The translations under genes and the position numbers were made by a program. A model generated the notes under the pieces. That model saw only the letters and a program-made list of their open reading frames with translations, did no database searches and was not told the DNA's origin. A DNA stretch of 40,456 bases from Bacteroidales bacterium (GTDB lineage: Bacteria; Bacteroidota; Bacteroidia; Bacteroidales; ML635J-15): the NCBI GenBank assembly GCA_017645925.1, contig JAGCNN010000103.1, forward strand, positions 1-40,456, given 5' to 3'. Position 1 is the stretch's first letter; the number at the start of each line of letters is the position of its first letter. Positions 11,878 through 35,032 of the stretch are shown here, piece after piece.

Positions 11878-12266
11878 TAGGTTTTGGTTCTTCTGTATTG
11901 TCCGGTAAAGTACCAAGCCCGTCATTTACTTGCTTCGCTGCGTGAGCTAAAGGTACGGAAGACAAAGCGAACAGGCGCAGCGGACACACTTTTTTGCTTA
12001 CTTTTTTTGGGCGACAATTGTCGAAGACAATCATGAGCACCGCTGAAAATCAATTGTAGGGGCGAATAACAAAGTAAAAGCCCTCGCGGCTTGAGCGAAA
12101 CCTAAAAAAGCGAATCATTATTTTCCTTTATGTTTGATAGGATATTCTTATCGCTTAACTCCTCCAGATATGTTGTCTAAACCATTTATTTTATTTGATA
12201 TTAGACACTTATATTTTTATTAATCTACCCTTTTTTTATTTGTTGTAAGATGAACAAAAAAATTAT
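11878..12266. other. Gene-free region before ruvA
   Basis: About 390 bases without a credible ORF. It holds the shortest copy of the inverted-repeat element (11897-11990), then a perfect 12-base palindrome CGACAATTGTCG at 12012-12023, a run of short GCG-rich words (12080-12120), and an AT-rich stretch leading to the ruvA promoter. No terminator with a strong stem and T-run is evident after 11877. Confidence 0.5.
11897..11990. repeat. Short degenerate copy of the TATTAGTGTCCGCTAAA inverted-repeat element
   Basis: It starts TATTGTCCGGTAAAGTACC and ends CAGCGGACAC, degenerate forms of the ends seen at 20871 and 25951. Inside is the shared module GCTTCGCTGCGTGAGC followed by TAAAGGTACGGAAGAC, also found at 20912-20944 and, in variants, at 26048-26075 and 26244-26270. 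There is no ORF. Confidence 0.65.
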
Positions 12267-20424: not shown

Positions 20425-20805
20425 ATGGCATTTCCAAAAGAATTAAAGTACGCAGAATCACACGAATGGCTGCGCGTTGAAGGCGAAGAAGCATACATTG
20501 GTATTACCGATTTCGCAGTATCTGAATTGAACGACCTTATTTACATTGAAATTGAGGTTGAAGGTGAAACTCTTGAAAAGGGTGAAGAATTTGGTGTTAT
20601 CGAAGCATCAAAGGTTGCATCAAAGGTTTACATGCCGGTATCTGGCGAAGTTCTCGAAGTAAATCAGGACGCTCTTGACAATCCTGAAATGTTGAAGGAC
20701 GACGCATATCAGAATGGCTGGTTGATTAAGATTAGAATGACCGACCCGTCACAGGCTAACGCTCTTCTCGATGCTGCAGCTTACGAAGCATTGACAAAGA
20801 AATAA
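20425..20805 (+). CDS. gcvH: Glycine cleavage system H protein
   Basis: A 126-residue lipoyl carrier that shuttles the aminomethyl group between the P, T and L proteins of the glycine cleavage system in the cytoplasm. The lipoyl-domain hairpin is clear: the attachment lysine is Lys63 in the motif EASKVASKVYMPVSGEV, where other H proteins read ESVKA. The N-terminal YAESHEWLRVEG and the tail with NGWLIKIRM are typical. The ATG at 20425 is chosen over an in-frame start at 20356, which would lie inside sprA and add residues unlike the family. It follows sprA as in other Bacteroidetes and is closed by a clear terminator. Confidence 0.97.
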   Translation: MAFPKELKYAESHEWLRVEGEEAYIGITDFAVSELNDLIYIEIEVEGETLEKGEEFGVIEASKVASKVYMPVSGEVLEVNQDALDNPEMLKDDAYQNGWLIKIRMTDPSQANALLDAAAYEALTKK

Positions 20806-20840: not shown

Positions 20841-20871
20841 TGCCGCGCTTCTTAGGTGCGGCATTTTTTTT
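20841..20871 (+). terminator. Rho-independent terminator after gcvH
   Basis: TGCCGC and GCGGCA form a 6-base-pair stem around an 11-base loop, followed by eight T residues. It ends where the inverted-repeat element begins. Confidence 0.85.
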
Positions 20872-21131
20872 ATTGGTGTCCGCTAAAGTATCCTGCTCGT
20901 CATTTACTAGCTTCGCTGCGTGAGCTAAAGGTACGGAAGACAAAGCAAACAGGCGTAGGAACGAGCCTTGTGAGCCTGTCTGCCCGAAATCTGTTAACTG
21001 ATTATTAGAGAACAGATTACTCACTTCGTTTCGTGAGAAAGTTCAGGACAAGTGAACTCACAAGCAACGTTCCTTATGCTGTTCGTTCTACTTTTCGGAA
21101 TGATTGGCTGGGACTTTATCGGACACTAATA
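20871..21131. mobile_element. Transposase-less inverted-repeat element, about 260 bases
   Basis: The ends TATTGGTGTCCGCTAAAGTA (left) and TTTATCGGACACTAATA (right) are near-perfect inverted repeats. Inside are the module GCTTCGCTGCGTGAGCTAAAGG and a 105-base block (20989-21095) that is almost identical to 26130-26242, including the hairpin CTCACTTCGTTTCGTGAG. No ORF of useful length is present. It lies between the gcvH terminator and the pgk promoter. The structure is that of a MITE-like element or of an IS relic without its transposase; target duplications are not clear in the T-rich flanks. Confidence 0.7.
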
Positions 21132-21204: not shown

Positions 21205-23118
21205 ATGGATAAGTGTAATAATCTGAAAATGATGCTACAGAATGTTGAGCATCCAGTTACCGTCCTGCTCGGTGGCGATAAGATAAAAGAACAACTCGAA
21301 GCTATTGATGGAATTCTAGAAGGTGTTGATAATGTACTCGTTGCAGGTGCAGTGATTGCTCCTTTTGCAAAGGCAAGCGGACTAAATGTCGGTGATTCGC
21401 CAGTTTGCGACGGTTGCGTTGCAAAGGCAAAGGAAATATTGGCAAAGGCCGCTGGCAAAATTTGTATGCCTGTTGACTGCTACATTGCCGACAAGCCGGA
21501 AAACGATTCCAACATCTCCCATCTTGAACTCAAGGACGTCCAAAACGGATTCATCATGGACATTGGTGTTAAAACCGTTGATATTTTCGCAGAAAAAATC
21601 GAAGGCGCAAAGACTTTTGTATGGAACGGAACCTTGGGACATTCCGAAATGCCACACTTTGCTTACGGAACCTACAAGACAGCCCTCGCTGCTGCCCGTG
21701 GCACTGCAAACGGACTGAAAACTATGGTTGATGGCGACGACACAAAGGCTGCAATCTTGCGCTATGGTCTCGAAGGTGGAATGTTTTTCCTTGAAGATGG
21801 CAAGCTGATGAAAAAAGCTGAACGCAAAGTTGTTCACACTGACGAGGCACCAAAGGACGGCTACACAATCGACCAATACAACTTCAACGGAAAGAAAGTT
21901 TTGCTCCGCGTTGATTTCAATGTTCCGCTGGACGAAAACTTCAACATTACCGACGATACCCGTATAGTTTGCGAAGTTCCTACAATCAAGAAGATTCTGA
22001 AGGATGGCGGTGCTGTAATTATCATGTCGCATCTTGGTCGTCCCAAGAAGGTTGACAATAAGTTCTCGCTCAAGCACATCGTTAAGCACGTAAGCGAATG
22101 TCTTGGTGTTCCAGTTCAATTTGCCGACGACTGCCAGAAGGCTCAGGCACAGGCTGCTGCACTGAAGTCGGGCGAAGTGCTTTTGCTTGAAAACTTGCGT
22201 TTCTACGCCGAAGAGGAGGGTAAGCCACGCGGATTGGCAGACGATGCTACAGACGAGGAAAAGAAGGCTGCAAAGGCTGCCATAAAGGAATCACAGAAGG
22301 AATTTGTTAAGACTCTTGCTTCGTATGGCGACTGCTACGTAAACGATGCTTTCGGCACAGCACATCGCGCTCATGCTTCAACGTACTATGTTGCAAAGTA
22401 CTTCCCGAAGGACAAAATGTTGGGTTATTTGGTTGAAAACGAAGTAAACAACATCAACAAGGTGCTTACTACTGGCGAAAAGCCTGTTACGGCAATAGTT
22501 GGCGGTTCAAAGATTTCGACCAAGATTGATATTATTAAGTCGTTGATAACCAAAGTTGATAACCTTATTGTTGGCGGTGGAATTTCCTATACTTTCATCA
22601 AGGCTATGGGCGGCAACATCGGACGTTCGTTGGCTGAAGACGATTGCATTCCTATTGCAAATGAAATTCTTGATATGGCCAAGAAGCTGAATGTAAACCT
22701 TTATCTGCCGGTTGACTGCATGATTGGAGACAAGTTCGACAACGAAGCCAACATTCACATGGCCGATGTTCGCAACGTTCCCGATGGCTGGGAAGGCATG
22801 GATATGGGTGTCAAGACCATACAGAGATACACCGAGGTTATAGAAAATTCGAAGACTATCCTTTGGAACGGTCCTATGGGTGTATTCGAAATGGAGCATT
22901 TCAGCAACGGAACCATGAAAGTTGCCTTGGCGGTTTGCCGCGCTACCGAACTTGGCGCATTCACCCTCGTAGGTGGCGGCGACAGCATTGCTGCTCTCAA
23001 CAAGTTCAACCTAAGCGAGAAAATCAGCTATGCTTCCACAGCAGGCGGAGCATTGCTCGAGTACATCGAAGGCAAGGAACTTCCAGGACTGAAGGCTATT
23101 TCATCAGACGAAATTTAA
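21205..23118 (+). CDS. pgk: Phosphoglycerate kinase with an extra N-terminal half-PGK domain
   Basis: A 637-residue protein; ordinary PGK is about 390-420. Residues 220-637 are a complete [12 protein letters not shown] at 235-243, SHLGRP at 275-280, GGSK at 433-436, WNGPMG at 554-559 and the nucleotide loop GGGDS at 590-594. It makes ATP and 3-phosphoglycerate in glycolysis. Residues 15-210 are a second, diverged copy of the C-terminal (nucleotide-binding) lobe: GGDK at 23-26, [10 protein letters not shown] at 88-97, WNGTLG at 140-145, then VDGDD where GGGDS should be. The extra lobe has thus kept its fold motifs but lost the nucleotide loop. There is no stop or frameshift between the two parts. 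The nearest in-frame internal ATG before the full PGK is at 21808 and might give a normal-length product. A regulatory or structural role for the extra lobe is inference. Confidence 0.93.
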
Positions 23119-25909: not shown

Positions 25910-25950
25910 GTTTGTAGTAAGGAGTGGAATTTTTGAAATGCAATGTAAAT

Positions 25951-26305
25951 TATTAGTGTTCGCTAAAAAAACAGAATGTTACGCGTAATTATGATGTTAT
26001 CAGGTATTTATGCAACAATACAAACAAAGGGGCATGTCATTTGCTCACTTCGTATCGCGAGCTAAAGGTACGGAAGCTAGTCGTAACACGCGATACGGAA
26101 CGTGGAGCGTTGTGAAGACTGCTGTCCGTAATCTGTTAACGGATTTATTATTAGAGAACAGATTACTCACTTCGTTTCGTGAGAGAGTTCCGGACAAGTG
26201 AACTCACAAGCAACGTTCCTTATGCTGTTCGTTCTACTTTACTTGCTTCGCTGCGTGAGCTAAAGGTTCCGGATGACGGGCTGGGTACTTTAGCGGACAC
26301 TAAAA
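25951..26305. mobile_element. Transposase-less inverted-repeat element, about 350 bases
   Basis: The ends TATTAGTGTTCGCTAAA (left) and TTTAGCGGACACTAAAA (right) are inverted repeats with one mismatch over the inner 15 bases. AATGTAAAT occurs at 25942-25950 and again at 26305-26313, a possible 9-base target duplication. The interior is a mosaic: two copies of the GAGCTAAAGG module (near 26060 and 26262) and the block 26130-26242 shared with the element at 20871. The only ORF (26010-26201) has no family character and lies across the modules. Confidence 0.72.
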
Positions 26306-26346
26306 ATGTAAATCTAAAATCGTAAGTCTAAAATCTAAATTTAGCT

Positions 26347-34654: not shown

Positions 34655-35032
34655 AAGATGCTTCCGACTATAGTTTTATTGTTGTCCACTAAATCCCCTA
34701 ACATATTATGGACAGGAATCAAAAATTATAAATTATTAGTGTCCGCTAAAAAAATACTCAAACGTCATAAAATCCTTGTTGTCAATGTCTTATGCAAGAA
34801 GATTGATGATGGCTTGAAGGCTCACAGGCTTGAAGCCATAACGTATTGAACGTTATTACGACTTTGGCTGTTAGCCTATAAGCCTGTTCGACTTTTAGCC
34901 CCTTAAACGCCGAAGGCATAGAAACTCAGAAACGGCGTAGCCATTGAAACAATACAAAAAGTCCCTTTCAAACATAACATGAGCATTTTATGAGCAGATG
35001 CATTGTTTTTGTCTAAAAACAACAAATCACAT
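34655..35032. other. Gene-free region with solo element ends and degenerate repeats
   Basis: About 380 bases with no credible gene; a 63-codon ORF at 34658 crosses the repeats and has no family features. Two element ends lie in the same orientation (34677-34693 and 34734-34750). From 34800 to 34960 it carries GGCTTGAAGGC, AGCCTATAAGCC and GAAACGGCGTAGCCATTGAAAC words, matching the region at 3520-3690. An AT-rich stretch leads to the promoter of the M14 gene. Confidence 0.5.
34677..34750 (+). repeat. Two solo ends of the inverted-repeat element
   Basis: TATTAGTGTCCGCTAAA at 34734-34750 matches the left ends at 20871 and 25951 exactly or within one base. A weaker version, TATTGTTGTCCACTAAA, is at 34677-34693 in the same orientation. 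No right end was found nearby, so these are probably remnants. Confidence 0.6.

Follow-up and report, generated by a model that had tools for sequence, protein, structure and literature searches.

A MITE family with IS4-type ends and tagged palindromic cargo in a Bacteroidales genome

The stretch of DNA analysed here (the window) comprises 40,456 nucleotides of contig JAGCNN010000103.1 from a Bacteroidales bacterium (assembly GCA_017645925.1). Direct reading of the window revealed a complete element of 354 bp at positions 25951-26304 of the forward strand, and BLAST, end pairing and alignment of copies likewise identified this segment as a complete MITE. An exact 9-bp target duplication, AATGTAAAT, flanks the element on both sides (25942-25950 and 26305-26313, forward strand), which bears out a preliminary description of inverted ends with a flanking 9-base duplication. 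The start given in that description is also correct, but its end at 26305 is not; this base, the last A of the right end as then quoted, already belongs to the right-hand duplication, which begins with it, and the true end is 26304. Window reading and end-sequence searches placed a 17-bp left terminal inverted repeat at 25951-25967 on the forward strand (TATTAGTGTTCGCTAAA) and a 16-bp right one at 26289-26304 on the reverse strand (TTTAGTGTCCGCTAAA, read inward); the two match at 14 of 16 aligned bases, with the right end being one base short. Alignment of copies further divided the forward strand between these ends into a left arm common to most copies of the family (25968-26035), a cargo segment of the form GTCAT...ATGAC (26036-26277), and a right arm of about 11 bp that leads from the cargo to the end (26278-26288). 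The cargo consists of head-to-head tagged palindromic units flanking a central AATCTGTTAACG...AGAACAGATT hairpin, and its modules recur in other families with terminal inverted repeats (TIRs). No open reading frame of at least 80 amino acids and no similarity to transposases was found inside the element, whose lack of a transposase had been noted earlier, and no Rfam family matched it.

Across the aligned copies the ends are fixed; beyond them the left arm runs for about 65 bp and the right arm for 9-12 bp, and some copies carry a short right-type arm on both sides. The unit between the arms starts with GTCAT, ends with ATGAC, and ranges from 44 to about 283 bp. It is usually a head-to-head pair of different GTC-tagged palindromes with a small AATCTGTT...AACAGATT hairpin between them, and units of the form GTCATTCCG...CGGAAT in these pairs combine a GTC tag with an AT-starting stem of 8-9 bp. 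Because this outer stem closes a loop of about 40-50 nt, far above the 4-5 bases of the REP criterion, we call the cargo REP-like and do not class it with CGTC-tagged REPs. Two single palindromes fold far better than shuffled sequences (z of -3.9 and -5.9), the same comparison for the whole element gave z of -2.8 as DNA and -3.5 as RNA, and the minimal 44-bp unit of one copy (L019) folded no better than shuffles. A search for an IS4-type MITE free of cargo, with its arms joined, found none. A separate subfamily (L076, L072, L074, L067, L101 and the outer elements of L103 and L111) has the same ends and an unrelated interior, CGCGTTGTCACAATTTTTG..., that holds no GTC-tagged cargo.

Other copies in the window are all intergenic, as previously described. 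The relative at 20871-21131 (forward strand; BLAST and end pairing) was confirmed as a second complete element, 261 bp long, with right-type arms at both ends and cargo at 20899-21104; it sits between gcvH (ending at 20805) and pgk (starting at 21205), and its target duplication is imperfect. A shorter relative reported at 11897-11990 does exist, at 11893-11990 of the forward strand, but end search and inspection of the sequence showed a damaged partial copy with a single recognisable TATTGTCCGGTAAA-like end, a right arm and the start of a cargo. The solo ends placed at 34677-34750 proved to be two left ends on the forward strand, a degenerate TATTGTTGTCCACTAAA (34677-34693) and an TATTAGTGTCCGCTAAA (34734-34750) that continues into the left arm of a second subfamily (34734-34820); end searches found no matching right end for the latter. 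In total, the window holds 7 end matches with up to 3 mismatches compared to 1.08 expected, a count that none of 100 shuffles reached.

The family extends well beyond the window. In the genome bin (3.09 Mb in 311 contigs, 75% complete), the genome-wide search with the 17-base end that had been proposed earlier returned 73 matches with up to 2 mismatches, compared to 8 for the reversed pattern, and BLAST of the whole element returned 52 homologous matches. Among 393 sampled genomes of the order, the exact 17-mer was present only in the source genome, G006 and G031, with one more occurrence in G007; the exact end is therefore lineage-restricted, confined to a few relatives. Many of the bin's contigs stop within a copy of the element (e.g., C28, C129, C213, C281 and C286), so the repeats evidently break the assembly, and an autonomous IS may be absent from the bin because of these breaks. 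G031, which belongs to a different family of the same order, has dozens of copies with TTACTGTCCGCTAAA ends (e.g., L127 and L145), which suggests that the ends multiplied independently in this distant relative; the only IS4 sequence seen there is a broken fragment (C36), with no family ends near it.

This repeat family is a MITE, a non-autonomous mobile element as the preliminary description held, and copy number, TIRs, duplications, nesting, empty sites and intergenic placement all support this assignment. Pairing of facing ends yielded 38 pairs in the source genome and 27 in relatives, and most of the convincing copies measure 154-400 bp end to end. For 42 pairs with good ends, exact 9-bp duplications were present in 13 (e.g., ATTTTGAAT, ATTCGTTTT and ATTGCAGAA) and duplications with at most one mismatch in 23, compared to 2 and 19, respectively, of 1706 control pairs in which the flanks of different copies were crossed. 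Many copies have imperfect duplications, and much of the family may therefore be old. Nesting was found in G006, where an outer element of L103 (1222-1607, duplication GATTAAAAC) encloses another (1362-1517, duplication ATATAATAG); L111 holds a second copy of this host element, interrupted elsewhere by yet another MITE. Because the two hosts are interrupted at different points, each represents the empty site of the other.

Comparison with relatives also revealed insertion polymorphism. Empty gcvH-pgk sites corresponding to the 261-bp copy, conserved on both sides, were found in four genomes (G008, G016, G022 and G023). In six relatives the same spacer (L373-L384) carries a single shared, older insertion that belongs to another MITE subfamily, and in G002 and G006 a different inserted sequence; given these varied inserts, this spacer takes repeated insertions. 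Upstream of tgt, G013 carries its own element at a different distance. Because the relatives have another gene to the left of the tgt-side copy, a clean site without this copy could not be demonstrated. Open reading frames of at least 120 amino acids were avoided by 16 of 19 copies, compared to 889 of 950 random placements that overlap one. A mobile origin had been said to become doubtful if the ends were rare or confined to orthologous places; copies are many and their sites are not orthologous, and mobility is thus not refuted.

The preliminary description also proposed that the transposase is encoded elsewhere. Our results support this and, through the ends and the length of the duplication, point to the IS4 family (DUF4372 group). 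Elements of the same genus that encode a DUF4372 + DDE_Tnp_1 transposase (NF033592, IS4 family; PF14294 and PF01609) have similar ends. A protein-guided scan of named genomes recovered 80 loci, and an order-wide search found IS4/DUF4372 transposases in 196 of 393 genomes. Among the IS4/DUF4372 transposases compared, the residues Y302, R305, E309 and K316, which fit the published YREK motif, do not vary. A scan for IS ends whose sole requirements were an inverted repeat and a 9-bp duplication, with no motif demanded, recovered dozens of complete IS4 elements of about 1.3-1.45 kb whose duplications are exactly 9 bp, the same length as in the MITE. The ends of IS4 elements across the order and phylum are mostly CAYTANTGTCC(G/A)NTAAA; examples include CATTAGTGTCCACTAAA with duplication TTTTCGTAT (L279), CACTAGTGTCCGATAAA with duplication GATTTAATT (L181), CACTAGTGTCCGGTTAA with duplication AATAGATAC (L161, from the same genus as the source), and CATTAGTGTCCGATAAA (L255). 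The MITE consensus TATTAGTGTCCGCTAAA differs from the nearest full IS ends at 2 of 17 bases, and certain single MITE ends agree with single IS ends at 16-17 of 17; copy C17 and IS loci L243-L245 have 20 of 20 end bases in common, and copy C263 has 17 consecutive bases in common with L267, L279 and L290.

None of the scanned IS loci carried exactly TATTAGTGTCCGCTAAA at both ends, and we therefore assign the parent to a family and not to an individual element; the proposed search for an IS with the same terminal repeats thus succeeded at the level of similar family ends, but did not recover an exact autonomous partner. Beyond about 20 terminal bases the MITE interiors have no sequence in common with the IS, and they contain no transposase remnant. 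No IS4/DUF4372 transposase was found in the near-complete relatives G007 and G013 or in the source bin, which is incomplete and breaks at repeats, and because of its absence from the bin we infer, rather than observe, that this family moved these copies. Other candidates were ruled out on the basis of their ends, including an ISAs1-family transposase that is the only DDE_Tnp_1 hit in the bin (C256; its surroundings contain no matching ends) and the IS982 of G006 (L156). Viral contigs with the end pattern gave three single matches, with no paired ends and no transposase in the open reading frames read. Several IS4/DUF4372 loci (L311 1733-1859, L315 491-617, L317 1742-1869 and others) have an extra inverted end motif, e.g. 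TGTCCGCTAAA, at the start of the transposase gene, a position that hints that the transposase might bind the start of its own gene.

The cargo is not confined to IS4-type elements. A search of the genus with the gcvH-pgk copy showed that most close relatives contain numerous copies of the cargo modules, which often lack IS4-type ends. Other inverted repeats enclose the same dimer in G017 and G015: at L400 and L403, GGCTCTAGTTTTA is paired with GGCTCTAGTTCGA or GGCTATAGTTTGA and flanked by 8-bp duplications (TTTAATTT and TTAATTGT), at L405 GGAAACTATATAC is paired with GGTAACTATATAC with an 8-bp duplication (AATTTTAT), and L415 is a weaker, poly-T case. Loci L398-L417, drawn from G013, G015, G016, G017 and G022, comprise two further MITE-like families with ends GGCTCTAGTTTTA.. 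and GGNAACTATATAC.., 8-bp duplications and the same tagged dimer. The cargo therefore occurs, with defined boundaries, in more than one TIR system, and it seems that several transposition systems carry the tagged palindromes along as cargo. A broader reading, which we put forward tentatively as quite possible though somewhat short of probable, is that the GTC-tagged dimers of palindromes form discrete units of cargo and spread inside unrelated MITEs, with at least three TIR systems in one Bacteroidales genus (IS4-type with 9-bp duplications, GGCTCTAGTTTTA-type with 8 bp and GGNAACTATATAC-type with 8 bp).

One may postulate alternative scenarios for these repeats. They could be conserved, immobile non-coding elements, such as a regulatory RNA, a terminator or structural repeats, a view that would fit their intergenic placement, their strong predicted folding and the one gcvH-pgk insertion that several sister species have at a single site. 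The lack of an Rfam match, the duplications, nesting and empty sites in relatives, the different insertion upstream of tgt in G013, and the unrelated interiors found under the same ends in some copies (L076) all argue against it; insertion polymorphism already contradicts this scenario, which we consider extremely unlikely. If the elements are mobile, their mover could still belong to another transposase family that generates 9-bp duplications (e.g., IS1-like or IS10/IS50-like), with the likeness to IS4/DUF4372 ends being due to convergence, and it is true that no cognate autonomous element was found in the source bin. Convergence would nevertheless have to account for 12-15 of 17 end bases being common to many independent IS4/DUF4372 elements with 9-bp duplications, and for the 16-17 matching bases of single copies; moreover, IS10/IS50 ends start with CT or CW, unlike most MITE ends here. 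We regard this scenario as improbable.

The interior raises a different possibility, in which the terminal repeats are incidental and a Y1 (RAYT) transposase has spread the whole element as a palindromic repeat of the REP/BIME type. GTC-tagged head-to-head palindromes that fold better than shuffles are what such an origin would lead one to expect, and 10 of the 11 genomes checked, the source among them, have Y1 transposase genes. Y1 transposases make no target duplications and need no inverted ends, however, and 9-bp target duplications are present here. The module in the source genome is also nearly always found between IS4-type ends (both ends in 24 cases, one end in 10, cut by a contig end in 8 and neither in 2), and the flanks of all 12 Y1 loci examined lack it, which counts against a RAYT origin of the cargo as well. 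A Y1 origin of the whole element is therefore strongly disfavoured, and we give it very little probability.

The explanation that we favor, and consider highly probable, is that the MITE is mobilised in trans by an IS4-family DDE transposase and carries an exchangeable REP-like cargo. A DUF4372 + DDE_Tnp_1 transposase, most like those of the IS4Sa subgroup, would recognise the 17-bp ends and mobilise the element, which would then insert into AT-rich intergenic DNA with a 9-bp duplication. Two fixed arms enclose the exchangeable GTCAT...ATGAC cargo, which may pass between MITEs by insertion into a MITE or by recombination between copies. The cargo is probably a passenger that is amplified by the MITE and not needed for transposition.

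These features can be placed among known systems. Members of the IS4Sa subgroup of the IS4 family have CA------T ends, 8-10 bp duplications and a YREK motif (De Palmenaer et al. 2008, PMC2266710); the family described here resembles them in end pattern and duplication length, and its ends are common to Bacteroidota DUF4372/DDE_Tnp_1 elements, whereas it lacks a transposase, most of its ends start with T rather than C, and its exact end was present on no IS found. The MITEs of P. gingivalis (MITE239, MITEPgRS and BrickBuilt; PMC4596501) are likewise intergenic Bacteroidales elements with IS-like ends and repeated or modular interiors, although their ends are of the IS5 family (GAGACC... and ACGTCA...) and not IS4-type ends enclosing tagged palindromic cargo. 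In Cardinium, the parent of another Bacteroidota MITE, MITECca01, was similarly assigned from its ends, but that parent is an IS982 that is intact in the same genome (PMC9769881). With CGTC-tagged REPs (PMC3733652) the cargo has in common a GTC tag, an AT-starting stem (ATTCCG.../...CGGAAT), head-to-head dimers and intergenic location; it differs in its loops (about 40-50 nt compared to 4-5) and in lying inside TIR-bounded elements with target duplications. The same survey reported CGTC repeats without a dedicated transposase, some of them located inside palindromes, and left open how such repeats spread (PMC3733652).

As a MITE family, these elements are of an ordinary kind, with a transposase family named by the evidence, and they carry a practical warning that such repeats break assemblies; the cargo adds more. 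Similar units with exact tag boundaries occur in several TIR systems, each with its own duplication length, which makes the idea of hitch-hiking directly testable. If true, it would provide an answer to how CGTC-type REPs that have no dedicated transposase multiply.
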